DNA of 64,000 bases, from NCBI GenBank assembly GCA_017522915.1, contig JAFWXX010000005.1, positions 1 through 64,000 of the forward strand, in the 5' to 3' direction. Numbering within the stretch: position 1 is the stretch's first letter; each line of letters starts with the position of its first letter. The DNA is from Bacteroidaceae bacterium. Its GTDB lineage: Bacteria > Bacteroidota > Bacteroidia > Bacteroidales > Bacteroidaceae. The notes below the pieces were generated by a model, which was given only the letters and a program-made list of their open reading frames with translations, was not told the origin of the DNA and made no database searches. Below, piece by piece: positions 396-7,335 of the stretch. The position numbers and the translations under genes are program-made.

Positions 396-1334
396 ATGAA
401 AAACATAAGATTCTTTATTATTTGCTCCTTATTAAGCATTTGCCTTTCGGCTTCGGCACAGTATGCAAAGCCCAGAATAATTGCTATGCCAAGTGCCTCA
501 TGGTGTCATAACAACGGATACATGCAGAAGATTGAGTTGAAAGGCCAGGAAACAGAAGTCCCCGATTACAAGAGAGCCCTGCTTGAAGACGAAAAGCTAA
601 ACTTCATGCTATCTAAAATGAGTGATGTCTTTGTCGATTTAAAATACCCTTTACAAGACTTGAAACTGACAATCGAGCAGGTAGAAGCTGCATTGCAGAA
701 CGATGGGAAAAACGTACAAGACAGCAAGAACATTGAAAGCCTTAATGAAAATCTGTTCAGCATAGCTGATATTGATATCGTCATCGAACTCGACTGGAAT
801 GTGCAGACCAACAGAGATAGAAAAAATATTGCATACAACATACGTGCAATAGATATATATACAGGCAAACTGATTGGTACCGTAGCTAATTCAACATGGG
901 AATCGTTGGGAGACCCATACGAAAATTTTTATCATGACGAGATTACCAGCAAGTTAGGAATTGCACTTCAGAGCTATTTTGAAGAACTGATGTCTAACGG
1001 ACGCGAGATATCTATTAGCGTAATGATTGCAGAAAATGAAATGAACATCGGCTTTGAAACAGAATTCGAGGGAGAAAGCCTGAGCGACATAATTGACGGT
1101 TGGCTTGAGAAGAACGCGAAGCAAACATCTTTCTACAAGAATGAGATAGCAGACAACCATACAAGATATGACAAAGTCTTTATTCCCACTCATAAGGAGA
1201 ACCGTACCATGAACAAAGCCGAAGATTTTAATAAAGGACTGATGCAGTATCTATGCAATGAGCCGTACAACATTCCATGCAAGACAATACACAGCAGTCC
1301 CAGACGTGGAATATTGGTCATTGGCGAAAAATAA
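396..1334 (+). CDS. DUF6175 family exported protein (copy 1)
   Basis: 312 residues with a Sec signal peptide (MKNIRFFIICSLLSICLSASAQ, cleavage after SAQ). I recognise the family as DUF6175, found in Bacteroides relatives; its function is unknown. Family-like features are the N-terminal block around MPSASWC, the PDYKRALL and PLQDLK segments, an NGREI segment, a SDIIDGWL segment, and the C-terminal end LVIGEK. The middle (YNIRAIDIYTGKLIG) resembles the strand pattern of CsgG/LpoB-like periplasmic domains, which is my inference. A second copy lies at 5750-6706, so the two paralogues bracket the island. A very stable hairpin follows the stop codon directly, so this gene probably forms its own transcription unit. 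Confidence 0.75.
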   Translation: MKNIRFFIICSLLSICLSASAQYAKPRIIAMPSASWCHNNGYMQKIELKGQETEVPDYKRALLEDEKLNFMLSKMSDVFVDLKYPLQDLKLTIEQVEAALQNDGKNVQDSKNIESLNENLFSIADIDIVIELDWNVQTNRDRKNIAYNIRAIDIYTGKLIGTVANSTWESLGDPYENFYHDEITSKLGIALQSYFEELMSNGREISISVMIAENEMNIGFETEFEGESLSDIIDGWLEKNAKQTSFYKNEIADNHTRYDKVFIPTHKENRTMNKAEDFNKGLMQYLCNEPYNIPCKTIHSSPRRGILVIGEK

Positions 1335-1338
1335 GATA

Positions 1339-1400
1339 TAACAGCAGTACAGCTCCCTCCTGCAACTGTATGGTAGCAGGAGGGAGCTGTACTGCTGTTA
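1339..1400 (+). terminator. 25-bp perfect stem terminator
   Basis: Arms at 1339-1363 and 1376-1400 are exact reverse complements over 25 bp, with a 12-nt loop. The hairpin starts four bases after the stop codon of the DUF6175 gene. Its left arm is nearly the same sequence as the terminator of the second DUF6175 gene at 6723-6760. Confidence 0.8.
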
Positions 1401-1518
1401 TTTGTCTTAACTTGTTCTGCACGACCTTTCTGGATAGAAAACCATAACCTTAAATCGCAAAAAAGTAAACTTCAGCAAACAAAAAGGCTATTTTTTATAA
1501 AAAATATAAAAAATTAAA

Positions 1519-1526
1519 TACATTTG
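1519..1526 (+). promoter_or_regulatory. -7 element for the WG-repeat gene
   Basis: TACATTTG matches the Bacteroidetes -7 consensus TAnnTTTG. The upstream region is a T-rich stretch without a clear TTTG box at the right distance. Transcription from here would give a leader of about 120 nt with a small hairpin (1547-1568) before the start at 1653. The rest of 1401-1652 shows nothing else I can support. Confidence 0.45.
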
Positions 1527-1652
1527 TACCATGAAGTTAAAAACATCTAATTATGTACAAGTAATTAGAAACAGTTGGATTTTTACAACAAGTCAAAGGG
1601 ACGAAACACACGAATTAAACTCTTATATTTAAATAACCTTACATACAAGACT

Positions 1653-3470
1653 ATGAGAAAAACTCTTATTTTTATTTTCATTTTCTTTACATGTTCTCTT
1701 TCGGCACAAAAACTCAAGGTTCATGCCGACGAGAAAGGAAAATGCGGTTACGCCAATGAGCAAGGCGAAGTGGTTATCAAGTGCAAGTACGATATTGCTT
1801 TTGAGTTCAAGGATGGAATGGCAAAAGTTGGCAAAGGTGACAAATTGGGTTTTATTGATTCGGAAGGCAAGGAAATACTGCCAGTAAAATACGAGGAGAT
1901 AACTTTGTGGCGAGAAGGAATATACCGCATAAAAACCGGCAAGAAATATGGTCTTTATTCAATAAAAGACGGCATTATCACAAAACCGCAATACAGTTGT
2001 ATAAGCGACCTCAACAGATTCGGCAAAGCCATTATCACCAGTGGAGGTAATGTAAAAGGCAATAAGGTAATTAAAGCAAAGATTGGAATATTGAACTCCG
2101 ATGGAAGCGTTGCTATCAAGCCTGCGTACGACAAGATCTCAGAGATAAAGAAGTTCAACAGGTTCTCAATAGAAGATATTGCCGGCGTATTAAGCGAGAA
2201 TAAGGTTTATATCGGCAAGATGAGCAAGACAGAGGAGTCTGTTTATGAATATAAAGTTAAAAAGAACTTGGAAGTTCCTAGATACGGAATACTGCTAAGT
2301 GATACTTTGGAAACAGATGTCGAATACCTCTGTTGCTATAAAGGTGAAAAATCGGCTGTAGTCGGAAGCAATGGAAAAGCGATTACACCATTCTTCAAGG
2401 ATTGCAAATTCACAATCCCATCATCTGGCATGTGCGGTTTCCGTTATGGCACAACAAAAGTAACAACAGGATATTACAATATAGAAACCAAAAAGAAGAT
2501 TTTCTTAGGTAAGAACATCAAGATAAAGAAACAGATCCTGGCAGCAACACCTTTTACAGGTGACATAGCACTGGTAATGAAATCAGAAGACAATTCACCA
2601 TTCGGATTATACTTCATAAACAAGAATGGTGAGCAAATTACAGAGGTTTTCCCGGTTGTCATGTATAAAGGCGGATACTGGATTGCATCAAGAATTGACG
2701 ACGGTGCAACAGCACCAGCAAACTTGCCTGAAGGTATAAAAGCTGAAGATTACAAACTCTCAAGAGCCATGTTAGACCAAAACGGTAATTGGGTAATGAA
2801 TTTCGGAGAGTACTGGAATATTCTTCCACACAATAGCGGAAAGTTATTTACGGTCATGACACACTCAGGAACATTAGGTGTCATAGATATAAACAAGAAT
2901 ACGGTCATACCATTTGAATATCACCAACTTGGAGAACCTATAAACGGTTGGTACTGGGCAAAGAACGACAAAAACAAGTGTGGTATTATAGACGAAAACA
3001 ATAATGTCATTCTGCCTTTTGAATATCACAATATATTCATGAATGAATCAAAGAACCCCACAAACATCTGGGTTCGTAAAGAAGAAAACGGTTTATGGAA
3101 CAATTATGACCTTGCCAAAAAACAGATTGTTGGAGAAGGGGTTGTAAGTTCTGCTAACTTTGTAGGAGACTACGCGTGGGTAGTTCCTCAGAACCAGCAA
3201 ATTACCAAAGACTTTGTATATAAAGCAATCTTGAGATTGTATCCAGGAAGAGCAGACAATGCTTTAGGCATACTTATTGACAAAGAAGGTAACCACAAAA
3301 CAGTAATCCCTATGCCAGTGGAGTTGTTCCCCGATTTGGCAAAAAGGCTGAAAGCCAATGAGGATAAAATAAGACCAGTGCATGAGAAAGAGATCATTTA
3401 CGAAAAGATACGCACTAGATTCAAACACGAATTGTCAAATACAGTTATAGAGGATTATTGGGATTTTTAA
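1653..3470 (+). CDS. WG-repeat exported protein
   Basis: 605 residues from the ATG at 1653. I prefer this start to the ATG at 1575 because it gives a standard signal peptide (MRKTLIFIFIFFTCSLSAQ), while the longer form adds 26 unrelated residues in front. Many WG-type repeats of about 35-45 residues follow, for example CGYANEQGEVVIKCKYD, LGFIDSEGKEILPVKYEE, IGILNSDGSVAIKPAYD and CGIIDENNNVILPFEYHN. WG repeats are thought to form beta-propeller or solenoid interaction surfaces; no enzyme motif is visible. The C-terminus (about the last 100 residues) is not repetitive. The gene is 23 bp upstream of the next one and probably opens the operon that runs to 6706. Confidence 0.85.
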   Translation: MRKTLIFIFIFFTCSLSAQKLKVHADEKGKCGYANEQGEVVIKCKYDIAFEFKDGMAKVGKGDKLGFIDSEGKEILPVKYEEITLWREGIYRIKTGKKYGLYSIKDGIITKPQYSCISDLNRFGKAIITSGGNVKGNKVIKAKIGILNSDGSVAIKPAYDKISEIKKFNRFSIEDIAGVLSENKVYIGKMSKTEESVYEYKVKKNLEVPRYGILLSDTLETDVEYLCCYKGEKSAVVGSNGKAITPFFKDCKFTIPSSGMCGFRYGTTKVTTGYYNIETKKKIFLGKNIKIKKQILAATPFTGDIALVMKSEDNSPFGLYFINKNGEQITEVFPVVMYKGGYWIASRIDDGATAPANLPEGIKAEDYKLSRAMLDQNGNWVMNFGEYWNILPHNSGKLFTVMTHSGTLGVIDINKNTVIPFEYHQLGEPINGWYWAKNDKNKCGIIDENNNVILPFEYHNIFMNESKNPTNIWVRKEENGLWNNYDLAKKQIVGEGVVSSANFVGDYAWVVPQNQQITKDFVYKAILRLYPGRADNALGILIDKEGNHKTVIPMPVELFPDLAKRLKANEDKIRPVHEKEIIYEKIRTRFKHELSNTVIEDYWDF

Positions 3471-3493
3471 TAACCGGTTAAAATAGAAAAACA

Positions 3494-4726
3494 ATGAACA
3501 AGACAACTAATATAATTATATGTGGAGTACTGCTCTTCTGTAATGTTTTCCATGGTTATGCACAAGAGGACGAATTCAAGTACAGACGCAGTTCTATGTA
3601 CTCTCTGCTAATAAACCATGAGGACCAGAAATTTGCGAATGAAATCAAGGATGCCTTTATAAAGATTCCTGTTCCGGACAAGTTCAACGACCATGATTTG
3701 AGTGTCAAGATTCTCACCATGGACAAGAAATTGAAAGACGCATCCTCGGACAAAGAAAATGAAACCATAACAGACTTCCTGCAACGTAACAACATAGCAA
3801 GTCGATTGGTTGGCAAATGGTTTAACCGTGACAAGAGCACTGGCGAGTGCGACATGAATCTTGTAAAGGAACGTGGCCTATACGATGCGACGAAATACGA
3901 CCTCATTCTGGCGGAGAAGTCAGCACGAAGTTCTGCACTGCTTATGGATGCCGGTGAAGAACTCATTGGAAACACTTATGTAGTAGTAAACGATATCAGA
4001 TATATTGACAAAGCCAAAACCGGCAAGGCTTTAGGAGGTATAGCAAGAGTACTAGGAGCTGTAGCGGCGGCATACACGGGAATTAACTTCAGTGATCTCA
4101 CAGACAACATTGCAGACATGGCAGAATCGTACAAAGGATTCAAGGTAAAAATCAACACATTCCTTTACCGTCTGACCTGGAATGAGGAGATAGCAAACAG
4201 ATTCTATATAGAACATTATTCCTCTGAGGCTGACGAAATAAAATGCAAGAACTTTGAAAATAGCAGAAACGAATACACCCTTACTTATGTAGGCAAAGTT
4301 GAGAGTAGCGGAAGCTCAACATCGTTCCTTGGAATAAATGAAGCAGAACCTATCTATATGGTTCGTAAGGCATGCCAACGTGCCATTGACGAAAATATCG
4401 TCAGCCTACAGAACGAATTTGAAGAGTTCCGTATAAAGACCCCGCTTGTCAGCAATGCACCTTTGACAGCATATATCGGCATGAAGGAGGGAGTAACAGA
4501 AAAAAGCCTTTACGAAGTTCTTGAAACGATAGAGAACGAAGATGGAACACGCCAGTACAAAAGAGTCGGTATTATAAAGCCTGTAAAAAACCTTATATGG
4601 GATAACAGATTCATGGCTGCAGAAGAAGGTGCAGCAACAGCCAACTTAGGATATACGACATTCATTAAAGAGAGCGGTTCTAACTTCTTGCCAGGAATGC
4701 TAATACGTGAAATAAAAAGCAAGTAA
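3494..4726 (+). CDS. Exported protein of unknown function (410 aa)
   Basis: 410 residues with a signal peptide ending in HGYAQ (cleavage near residue 24). I do not recognise a named family. A Gly/Ala-rich hydrophobic stretch (GKALGGIARVLGAVAAAYTG, about residues 177-196) sits mid-protein. The last 85 or so residues (YIGMKEGVTEKSLYEVLE ... VGIIKPVKNLIWDNRF) have the pattern of a small beta-barrel, resembling the C-terminal domain of FlgT-like proteins; this resemblance is inference from reading alone. It sits 3 bp before the next gene and clearly shares an operon with its neighbours. Confidence 0.65.
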   Translation: MNKTTNIIICGVLLFCNVFHGYAQEDEFKYRRSSMYSLLINHEDQKFANEIKDAFIKIPVPDKFNDHDLSVKILTMDKKLKDASSDKENETITDFLQRNNIASRLVGKWFNRDKSTGECDMNLVKERGLYDATKYDLILAEKSARSSALLMDAGEELIGNTYVVVNDIRYIDKAKTGKALGGIARVLGAVAAAYTGINFSDLTDNIADMAESYKGFKVKINTFLYRLTWNEEIANRFYIEHYSSEADEIKCKNFENSRNEYTLTYVGKVESSGSSTSFLGINEAEPIYMVRKACQRAIDENIVSLQNEFEEFRIKTPLVSNAPLTAYIGMKEGVTEKSLYEVLETIENEDGTRQYKRVGIIKPVKNLIWDNRFMAAEEGAATANLGYTTFIKESGSNFLPGMLIREIKSK

Positions 4727-4729
4727 GAG

Positions 4730-5203
4730 ATGAATAAGACATTTTTCATACTATTCCTCACTATTATGTTCAGCTATAATGCTTGGGCAGAGTACGACAA
4801 AATTGAAAAATACGAAATACAATCGGCTGGAACCGGTGTAGAAGGCACATATCTTGTAAAGGTATTGATATACTCAAAAACAAATAAATTGAGTGATGAT
4901 GCATATAAATACGCAGCAGTACATGGATGCATTTTCCGTGGATTTTCCGGTGCACCAGGAATGACTTCAGCTCCCCCAATGGCAAGCAGCCCTACTCTGG
5001 AAGAAGACAGAGAAGAATACTTCAAAACATTCTTTGAAAGTACTTATATGAACTTTGCATCAGTAGTAGAAGCATCATACAAAGTTATAAGATTAAAAAA
5101 GAAAGGATATAAATTAGAAGCAACAGTACAAGTCAAAAAAGACAAACTACGGCACGAACTTGAAAAGTCAGGAATTATCAAAGGACTTGCAAGCGGCTTC
5201 TGA
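4730..5203 (+). CDS. Small exported protein, paralogue of the next gene
   Basis: 157 residues with a signal peptide (MNKTFFILFLTIMFSYNAWA). The mature part shares a layout with the 163-residue protein encoded next: an alpha/beta N-terminal half with a lengthy helix, then an EEYF..FF motif (REEYFKTFFESTYMNF here), a basic linker, and a conserved C-terminal end (RHELEKSGIIKG). The layout resembles LPP20 / FlgT N-terminal domains, which is inferred and not verified. A Pro/Ser/Met-rich insert (GAPGMTSAPPMASSP) sits mid-protein. Only 3 bp separate it from the upstream stop codon. Confidence 0.6.
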   Translation: MNKTFFILFLTIMFSYNAWAEYDKIEKYEIQSAGTGVEGTYLVKVLIYSKTNKLSDDAYKYAAVHGCIFRGFSGAPGMTSAPPMASSPTLEEDREEYFKTFFESTYMNFASVVEASYKVIRLKKKGYKLEATVQVKKDKLRHELEKSGIIKGLASGF

Positions 5204-5230
5204 CCATACAAACCGTGTTAACCATAAAAA

Positions 5231-5722
5231 ATGACAGATATGAATTGTAAACTTAGGTACTTTTTATTTGCGATTGTCGCACTTATCTCAATGACATCGC
5301 TGCATGCACAGGATTTCTCGTCCTACCACAAAGGTAATATCGAATGTCTTGAGGCCGAGCTGGACGGTTCGTTGACACTACGTGTAACCGGTGCGGGGAA
5401 AAATCGCTCCGATGCCGAAGAACAAGCAAAAAAGAATGCTGTATATGAAATCATATTCAAGGGAATTGTGGGCTCTGCATCAGGGAAAATAACAAAACCT
5501 CTTGTAACTGAAGTCAATGCGCGTGAAAGATATGAAGAATACTTTGACCAGTTCTTCGCTGATGGCGGAGAGTACAAGAATTTCGTATCAAAGGCCGATG
5601 CTAAACGTTCAAGCAAAGAGAAGACCAAGAAAAAATACGAGAATACATGCAGGTTGACAGTCAGAGTACTGCGTAGCGAGCTTAAGGCACATTTGAAAAA
5701 AGATGGAATAATAAAGAAATAA
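5231..5722 (+). CDS. Small exported LPP20-like protein
   Basis: 163 residues; the start is the ATG at 5231 or the one at 5240, and the latter gives a more typical signal peptide ending in SLHAQ. The segment GAGKNRSDAEEQAKKNAVYEI has the small-residue turn, the DAEEQAKKNA helix and the following strand typical of LPP20 / FlgT N-terminal domains. RYEEYFDQFF and KAHLKKDGIIKK match the same positions in the upstream paralogue. Function unknown. It lies 27 bp after the upstream gene and 27 bp before the second DUF6175 gene. Confidence 0.6.
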   Translation: MTDMNCKLRYFLFAIVALISMTSLHAQDFSSYHKGNIECLEAELDGSLTLRVTGAGKNRSDAEEQAKKNAVYEIIFKGIVGSASGKITKPLVTEVNARERYEEYFDQFFADGGEYKNFVSKADAKRSSKEKTKKKYENTCRLTVRVLRSELKAHLKKDGIIKK

Positions 5723-5749
5723 TAAACTGATAATATCAATTGAAGTACT

Positions 5750-6706
5750 ATGAAAAATTTTAAATTTATACTTTTGGGTCTTCTATTTGGAACTGCTCTT
5801 TCTGTTTTCGGACAGGCAAAAAGACCTAAACTGATGGTAGTACCGAGCGATTCATGGTGCATGGAGCATGGATATACAAATAAATATGATAATATGGGCA
5901 ACATCGAGTATGTCCCAGACTACAAGGCTGCTCTACTGAATTGTAAGGAACTAAACAATGTAATATCAAAGATTAATATCATTATGGCCGACAGAGGTTT
6001 TCCTTTGCAGGACCTTCAACAAACAATTAAATCCATAAATAACATTTCGGCCGAAGACCAGCTTATTCAAAGCAAGACAAGCGGAGCAAACATTGCAGAA
6101 AGCCAGTTGGACCGTATACGTCGTACAGCAAAAGCTGATATTATACTGGAAATTGATTGGAACATCAACACAGTGGGGCCCAAGAAAAGCATAACATACA
6201 ATCTGCGTGGCTTGGATGCATACTCAAATAAACAAGTTGCAGGTGTACAAGGAACAGGGACACCATCATTCTCGGCCGAAGTTGATGTACTTCTTGAAGA
6301 AGCCACACTTAGCAACGTTGACAATTTCATAGCCTCGCTGCAACAACACTTTGACGATATCCTGGCAAATGGTCGCGAAGTTGTTTTAGACATAAGGGTG
6401 TTCAACAATGCGGAAGGTATTGATTTGGAATCGGAGTATGATGGATATGAACTTACGGAGATAATTGACAACTGGCTTGCCGAGAACACTGTAAATCATG
6501 TATTCAGCAAATCGGACGGAACCGCTACTATGACTCTATACGACCAGGTACGAATTCCCCTATACAAGGCGAATGGCATGGCACAGGATACCGAAGGTTT
6601 TACAAGAGAACTAGCACGTCACCTTCGTAAAGAGCCATACAAGGTACCATGCAAAATAATAAACAGAGGATTAGGACGTTGCCTACTCGTCATTGGCGAA
6701 AAATAA
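5750..6706 (+). CDS. DUF6175 family exported protein (copy 2)
   Basis: 318 residues, signal peptide ending in SVFGQ. This copy is closer to the DUF6175 proteins I remember than copy 1 is: it has VPSDSWC, VPDYKAAL, DRGFPLQDLQQTIKS, KTSGANIAES, a KADIILEIDWN strand, YNLRGLDAYSNKQVAG, NGREVVLDIRVF, LTEIIDNWL and the end RGLGRCLLVIGEK. It is the last gene of the likely operon 1653-6706 and is followed at once by a hairpin. Protein similarity to copy 1 is clear but moderate, whereas the last 21 coding bases and the terminator are almost identical between the two. Confidence 0.8.
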   Translation: MKNFKFILLGLLFGTALSVFGQAKRPKLMVVPSDSWCMEHGYTNKYDNMGNIEYVPDYKAALLNCKELNNVISKINIIMADRGFPLQDLQQTIKSINNISAEDQLIQSKTSGANIAESQLDRIRRTAKADIILEIDWNINTVGPKKSITYNLRGLDAYSNKQVAGVQGTGTPSFSAEVDVLLEEATLSNVDNFIASLQQHFDDILANGREVVLDIRVFNNAEGIDLESEYDGYELTEIIDNWLAENTVNHVFSKSDGTATMTLYDQVRIPLYKANGMAQDTEGFTRELARHLRKEPYKVPCKIINRGLGRCLLVIGEK

Positions 6707-6722
6707 GATAAAACAACAGTAC

Positions 6723-6760
6723 AGTTCCCTCCTGTAACTTTACAGTTGCAGGAGGGAACT
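6723..6760 (+). terminator. Terminator of the DUF6175/WG operon
   Basis: Arms 6723-6739 and 6744-6760 form a 17-bp stem with one G-U pair and a 4-nt loop, followed by TTTATAT. Its left arm differs at only a few bases from that of the terminator at 1339-1400. Confidence 0.75.
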
Positions 6761-7035
6761 TTTATATAGCAAATTCATTTGGCAATTCAGACTTATGAAA
6801 TGAGGCTGTGAACAAAGAAATGCTCCGTTGGTTTATATCATAATAAGGATATCGAAAAAAATATCAAATTTCCCAAATAGCTGTTTTTCAAAATACAAAT
6901 ATAATTATCGTACTAAAATGCAGATTGCATGACAACACCATTTTTGGAGCACGGGACAGCATGTCAAATTTATCAAAAAAGGTATTTATTTCCCTTAACA
7001 TCAATGCATTGTAGAAATATAATAACGTAAAAAGA
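6761..7035. other. AT-rich intergenic region
   Basis: About 275 bases between the operon terminator and the promoter of the small HTH gene. I see no convincing coding frame, tRNA or repeat in it. Confidence 0.4.
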
Positions 7036-7066: not shown

Positions 7067-7116
7067 TGCAAATTATATAAATTTGTCGCAAAAATTCAAT
7101 ATCACTTATCACAGCT

Positions 7117-7335
7117 ATGATTCACATCGGAAGCATTATAAAGAAAAGGTTTGACGAACATGGAGAAAGCGTTTCCTGGTTCGCGAAACAACTATGTTGC
7201 GACAGAACTAACGTGTACAGCATTTTCAAGCGGGAAAGCATAGACACAGCACTTCTAGTAAAGATTTCAGTGATATTGAACCACGATTTCTTCAAGTATT
7301 ACAGTAAAGATATTGCAATTGCCGAAAATATCTAA
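7117..7335 (+). CDS. Small XRE-type HTH protein
   Basis: 72 residues. The pattern IGSIIKKRFDEHGESVSWFA, then LCCDRTNVYSIFKRESIDT, then LLVKISVILNHDFFKYYS matches a five-helix lambda-repressor-like HTH, with the recognition helix around DRTNVYSIF. There is no effector domain, so it would act as a minimal DNA-binding protein. It has its own promoter and terminator, and it stands alone between the exported-protein island and the rhamnose genes. Whether it controls either neighbour is unknown. Confidence 0.75.
   Translation: MIHIGSIIKKRFDEHGESVSWFAKQLCCDRTNVYSIFKRESIDTALLVKISVILNHDFFKYYSKDIAIAENI

Follow-up and report, generated by a model that had tools for sequence, protein, structure and literature searches.

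A conserved operon of flagellum-free Bacteroidota encodes exported proteins predicted to fold like flagellar and secretion ring parts

We describe an operon of exported proteins that is conserved across Bacteroidota and whose families co-occur in Bacteroidales genomes. Structural models of two of its products, P3 and the DUF6175 protein D2 (residues 23–207), give predicted folds akin to components of flagellar and secretion rings. The predicted folds suggest an undescribed assembly of the outer envelope. Our leading, though still tentative, explanation is that the products of the operon build a periplasmic assembly, non-flagellar and associated with the outer membrane, from FlgT- and CsgG-type domains, probably in the form of a ring.

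The operon lies in a stretch of 64,000 nt from the genome of a Bacteroidaceae bacterium (the window). Six open reading frames, all on the plus strand, were located there, with the following features:

396–1334, plus strand: D1, a divergent second DUF6175 protein, 312 aa (PF19672, 194.6 bits against a Pfam cut-off of 23; 34% identical to D2)
1338–1401, plus strand: hairpin 3′ of D1, with 29-nt arms at 1338–1366 and 1373–1401, homologous to the hairpin 3′ of D2 (repeat search)
1653–3470, plus strand: WG, an exported WG-repeat protein, 605 aa, operon gene 1 (WG_beta_rep, PF14903, five stretches; start taken as the ATG at 1653, the mechanical reading frame opening at 1575)
3494–4726, plus strand: P3, 410 aa, predicted FlgT middle-type and C-type domains (AlphaFold, Foldseek, VIA)
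4010–4135, plus strand: codons for P3 residues 173–214, an inserted low-confidence helix pair (DSSP and pLDDT of the model)
4424–4723, plus strand: codons for P3 residues 311–410, a predicted FlgT-C-like beta-barrel (VIA against 8z5n_0 288–377)
4730–5203, plus strand: sA, a small exported protein, 157 aa, paralogue of sB (profile comparison of sA with sB, 100%)
5240–5722, plus strand: sB, a small exported protein, 160 aa, paralogue of sA (profile comparison; start taken at 5240, mechanical start 5231)
5750–6706, plus strand: D2, the main DUF6175 protein, 318 aa, two domains (PF19672, 373.1 bits against the same cut-off)
5816–6370, plus strand: codons for D2 residues 23–207, a predicted CsgG/PelC/TolB-N/FlgT-M-type domain (VIA)
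about 6723–6770, plus strand: terminator-like hairpin closing the operon directly 3′ of D2, 17 pairs followed by a T-rich run

DUF6175 and the WG repeats are the sole known families among the six proteins, and the Pfam scan of the window proteins gave no family match for P3, sA or sB. The earlier note had described all six proteins as exported and at least the last five genes as a tight operon, and both descriptions hold. All six N-termini read as Sec/SPase I signal peptides, called by inspection and pattern, and the same means revealed no lipobox in any of the six. WG, P3, sA, sB and D2 form one tight operon on a single strand, with gaps of 23, 3, 36 and 27 bases and a hairpin at the 3′ end. 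D1 is probably a separate transcription unit, because it is separated from WG by a hairpin of its own. In addition, a repeat search revealed a 170-nt repeat common to D1 and D2 (74%), spanning the gene end and the hairpin, so that D1 looks like an extra DUF6175 copy, as after a segmental duplication. The Bacteroidales promoter motif has no match ahead of D1 or WG, and its frequency in the window is that expected by chance. A 78-codon frame 3′ of the operon (window 7099–7332, plus strand) resembles by eye a small helix-turn-helix regulator and has no Pfam match.

The gene set is carried by many gut, rumen and water Bacteroidota without flagella. We analysed a sample of 295 Bacteroidales genomes, from which 40 DUF6175 neighbourhoods were drawn, and a second sample of 80 loci of named genomes, including Myroides, Dysgonomonas, Bacteroides, Prevotella and Flavivirga. 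DUF6175 was found in 67 of the 295 genomes. The standard set consists of DUF6175, P3, a further protein named X, and either one small protein or two. Of the 80 relative loci, 79 have small proteins, 78 have X, 75 have P3 and 31 have WG. Genes for a small protein, DUF6175 and X are consecutive in 77 of these loci, with median gaps of 15 nt and P3 close by in 75, and all 32 WG–P3 neighbour pairs lie within 150 nt. Furthermore, four families co-occur almost perfectly in the 295 genomes (Fisher p 1e-38 to 1e-55, kinship not corrected). The genes thus stay together in other genomes, and their conservation across Bacteroidota and co-occurrence argue that the set is more than chance. In some of the neighbourhoods from the 295-genome sample the small protein is fused to DUF6175, and a lipobox pattern is present in 22 of 72 sB relatives. 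No mention of DUF6175 was found in the literature searched.

Flagellin is absent from the genome and none scored above cut-off in the 295 Bacteroidales, with control genomes positive, in accordance with the expectation that no flagellum is present. PADLOC gave no match that would indicate a defence system. As for a mobile element, no plasmid match was found, and a phage collection holds one unannotated 9-kb record from human faeces ('Bacteriophage sp.', MT836698.1) that encodes at 2993–3943 a DUF6175 protein 61% identical; the record may be a misfiled bacterial contig. A link to type IX secretion was considered and rejected, since its marker SprA_N is present in 277 of the 295 genomes and is therefore uninformative.

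FlgT is part of the sodium-driven polar flagellum, and FlgO and FlgP are proteins of the H-ring. In a Foldseek search of 350,542 PDB chains, the AlphaFold model of P3 (pLDDT 84.3, 66 aligned sequences) has FlgT as its first match (3w1e, E 4.1e-6) and FlgT in the LPHT ring as its second (8z5n_0, E 2.5e-5), and the next, unrelated fold follows at E 0.29, about four orders of magnitude behind. In the VIA alignment, residues 31–410 of the model align to FlgT 95–356, so that both the middle and the C domain of FlgT are covered, in the order they have there. The C-terminal barrel superimposes on FlgT-C (8z5n_0 288–377) with a Z of 8.6 and 2.6 Å over 80 residues, as proposed in the earlier note for the end of this 410-residue protein. 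Over the 210-residue VIA alignment the rmsd is 11.5 Å, so the relative placement of the domains may differ between P3 and FlgT. By its model, P3 is thus predicted to have the two-domain architecture of FlgT's middle and C domains.

P3 is not FlgT as defined, because it has no N domain, no family match and no flagellum to serve. Specifically, mature P3 begins at FlgT residue 95 of the alignment, leaving out the FlgT N-terminal domain, and the best match of Pfam FlgT_C in the genome reaches 12.1 bits (E 0.55), below the cut-off of 27. When all four families were used for sequence-profile searches of the PDB, no match rose above chance level. The likeness could in principle reflect common folds, brought together by convergence or chance with no shared working principle. 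Such an origin would fit the match of the P3 barrel to the N-terminal domains of F1-ATPase (VIA, Z up to 7.7), the low TM-score of 0.20 over the whole chain (Foldseek) and the weak FlgT_C score, but we consider it quite unlikely, given a two-domain match in the right order that stands so far ahead of the next fold, and given that the more divergent forms of the operon, described below, contain domains that can be recognised as LPP20 and LptE-type.

The AlphaFold model of D2 (pLDDT 85.7, 74 aligned sequences) points to a second ring-type fold. Foldseek matched residues 23–207 to GNA1162, CsgG, XCC0632, PelC and LpoB, and VIA matched them to CsgG (Z 9.9), PelC (Z 9.2) and the FlgT middle domain (Z 8.0), as well as to TolB-N. 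DUF6175 23–207 is accordingly modelled as a CsgG/PelC/LpoB-type alpha/beta domain, bearing out the CsgG/LpoB-like pattern attributed to the family from its strands. The second domain, residues 209–318, has no convincing match in searches with the whole D2 model. Pfam scans of all family members yielded, besides DUF6175 itself, only scattered sub-threshold matches, with one DUF6175 member reaching E 0.0027 against FlgO.

Curli export and Pel polysaccharide export each use a ring protein, CsgG and PelC respectively. Domains of the CsgG type are not confined to rings: TolB, LptE and LpoB have them as well, and these need not assemble into one. The fold of residues 23–207 and outer-envelope export are common to DUF6175 and the CsgG/PelC pair, whereas D2 has an additional second domain, no lipobox and no inserted membrane beta-hairpin strands in its model, and no curli or Pel genes were seen beside the operon. 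The proposal that the set is a split FlgT is therefore upheld for the kind of domains but not for a clean division of N, middle and C domains over three proteins, because two of these domains, middle and C, are already joined in P3, and DUF6175 adds another protein of the middle kind.

The small proteins sA and sB, which have no Pfam match, read by eye like members of the SHS2-like fold group. FlgP, LPP20 and FlgT form one such group, in which ring formation has been linked to an insertion after the helix of the fold (PMC12222027). A first profile score of 95.7% between the small proteins and LPP20 was circular, since the LPP20 alignment had recruited small proteins, and is not counted; the repeat, run without signal peptides and shared members, gave 10.1%, with controls for the same query at 1.4% or below. 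The LPP20/FlgT-N nature claimed for sA and sB is thus not established by profile comparison.

Divergent relatives provide further bridges. Loci L064–L068 and L073 have a shorter protein of 272–327 residues in or beside P3's place. It resembles LptE in L065, with a score over the Pfam cut-off, and LpoB in L073, with a score under it, and the P3 C domain finds its best profile match in the C-terminal part of this protein (31–52%). In L065 and L073, proteins that adjoin the operon exceed the Pfam cut-off for LPP20, and 16 relative loci have LPP20-family genes no more than 1.6 kb away on the same strand. These LPP20-family neighbours and protein X extend the set beyond that of the earlier note.

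Compared with FlgT and the H-ring, the operon thus has in common the predicted fold and order of the FlgT middle and C domains in P3, and LPP20-type proteins, of the FlgP fold group (PMC12222027), adjoining it in relatives. It differs in that its parts are spread over several proteins, in that P3 lacks the N domain, in the lack of a flagellum, and in the addition of the CsgG-type DUF6175 family, a helix-hairpin insert and a WG-repeat partner.

The sub-threshold LpoB match in L073, together with the presence of LpoB among the structural matches of DUF6175, would also suit periplasmic activators or regulators of cell-wall synthesis that act like LpoB and form no ring. We regard this as improbable, because the FlgT-C barrel is added in P3 and a fixed multi-protein set is unlike a single activator.

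Other exported proteins were seen in the genome and its relatives. The same genome also encodes, on contig C31 (L156:237–1956, minus strand), two exported proteins that form a pair apart from the operon: one of 202 aa comes close to the LPP20 threshold (23.4 bits against a cut-off of 25.9), and its neighbour of 364 aa has, by eye, an LPP20-like start and a FlgO-like end. Extra exported proteins in or after the operon of relatives (L076:6933–7502, L091:6734–7447, L114:6508–7458 and L075:9953–10807) comprise a 190-aa protein resembling by eye a small outer-membrane barrel, 'DVVYLNNG' proteins of 240–320 aa and 'FEGE' proteins of 285–334 aa, and have no Pfam match over cut-off.

In 78 of the 80 relative loci, protein X is the family gene that follows DUF6175. 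X is absent from the window locus, where no remnant of it was found, and the window set is an incomplete version of the standard set. The same genome has a second, standard locus on contig C23, in the order P3′–small–DUF6175–X, which holds the only X of the genome. In profile comparison, the N-terminal part of X resembles the C-terminal domain of LPP20-long proteins (88.6%), and LPP20-long proteins in turn resemble the protein that divergent relatives have in P3's place (about 81%). From these profile matches X is probably another CsgG-type protein, its N-terminal domain probably being of that type. On the window's own contig beyond the window, an orphan small-family gene (L188:6088–6567; C10:109084–109563) stands near a rubrerythrin-like gene and away from any P3, DUF6175 or X.

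In the AlphaFold model, P3 residues 173–214 form a low-confidence helix pair between two strands. Many short P3 proteins have this hairpin in a Gly/Ala-rich, hydrophobic form; the long ones lack it. As a general membrane anchor it was rejected; the anchor idea is kept to one branch because the long variants lack the hairpin. WG is found mainly before P3 with a hydrophobic hairpin (31 of 34, versus 27 of 70; kinship not corrected), and WG is best read as an accessory tied to these P3 variants. Four P3 relatives show sub-threshold Pfam matches to TraT; in the two whose match coordinates were examined, these fall in the strand-plus-hairpin region and reach at most 16 bits against a cut-off of 31, one of the two also having a glycine-zipper match. 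TraT is a decameric outer-membrane lipoprotein whose membrane helices anchor the ring without forming a pore (PMC11733297). The likeness, which lies in that region of P3 relatives, is a lead only, and the window P3 differs from TraT in lacking a lipobox and having the FlgT-C barrel.

The preference of WG for hydrophobic hairpins, the hairpin insert itself and the rank of CsgG and PelC as the best structural matches of DUF6175 are also what one would see if the operon encoded an export channel of the outer membrane, or the periplasmic collar of one, built like CsgG or PelC and passing a polymer or a protein, perhaps WG, to the surface. This is rather unlikely: the D2 model contains no membrane beta-hairpin insert and D2 no lipobox, long P3 has no hairpin, and WG, the sole candidate cargo of the set, is present in only 31 of the 80 loci.

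For the preferred periplasmic assembly of FlgT- and CsgG-type domains, we infer how a ring would form, where it would sit, in what order it would assemble, what WG would do and what the whole would be for, as follows. All parts would be exported by Sec. P3 and DUF6175 would oligomerise via their CsgG-type domains to form a ring or scaffold on the periplasmic face of the outer membrane, with sA and sB pairing with DUF6175. X, ordinarily a member of the assembly, is missing from the window locus. In the window branch, the hydrophobic P3 hairpin may touch or enter the outer membrane, and the WG protein may dock there. Its purpose would most likely be to organise the outer membrane or something that crosses it. 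This reading draws on the predicted folds of P3 and of DUF6175 23–207, the profile matches of X, the fusions of small proteins to DUF6175, the conserved operon and its co-occurrence, the LPP20-family neighbours and the missing flagellin. Counting against it are the CsgG-type domains of proteins that need not be ring-formers, a FlgT likeness confined to the predicted fold, the rmsd of 11.5 Å, the lack of a lipobox in the window proteins, the long P3 variants without a hairpin and the missing X.

In a bolder version, which we consider somewhat unlikely, the operon would represent an outer-membrane ring machine, so far undescribed, that is widespread among Bacteroidota without flagella and has H-ring parts dispersed over several proteins, and flagellar FlgT, FlgO and FlgP would be one specialised branch of an envelope-ring toolkit. 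If true, DUF6175 would gain a structural class and partners, and the domain set of the flagellar H-ring would exist as a non-flagellar operon, which would make the origin of the ring testable.
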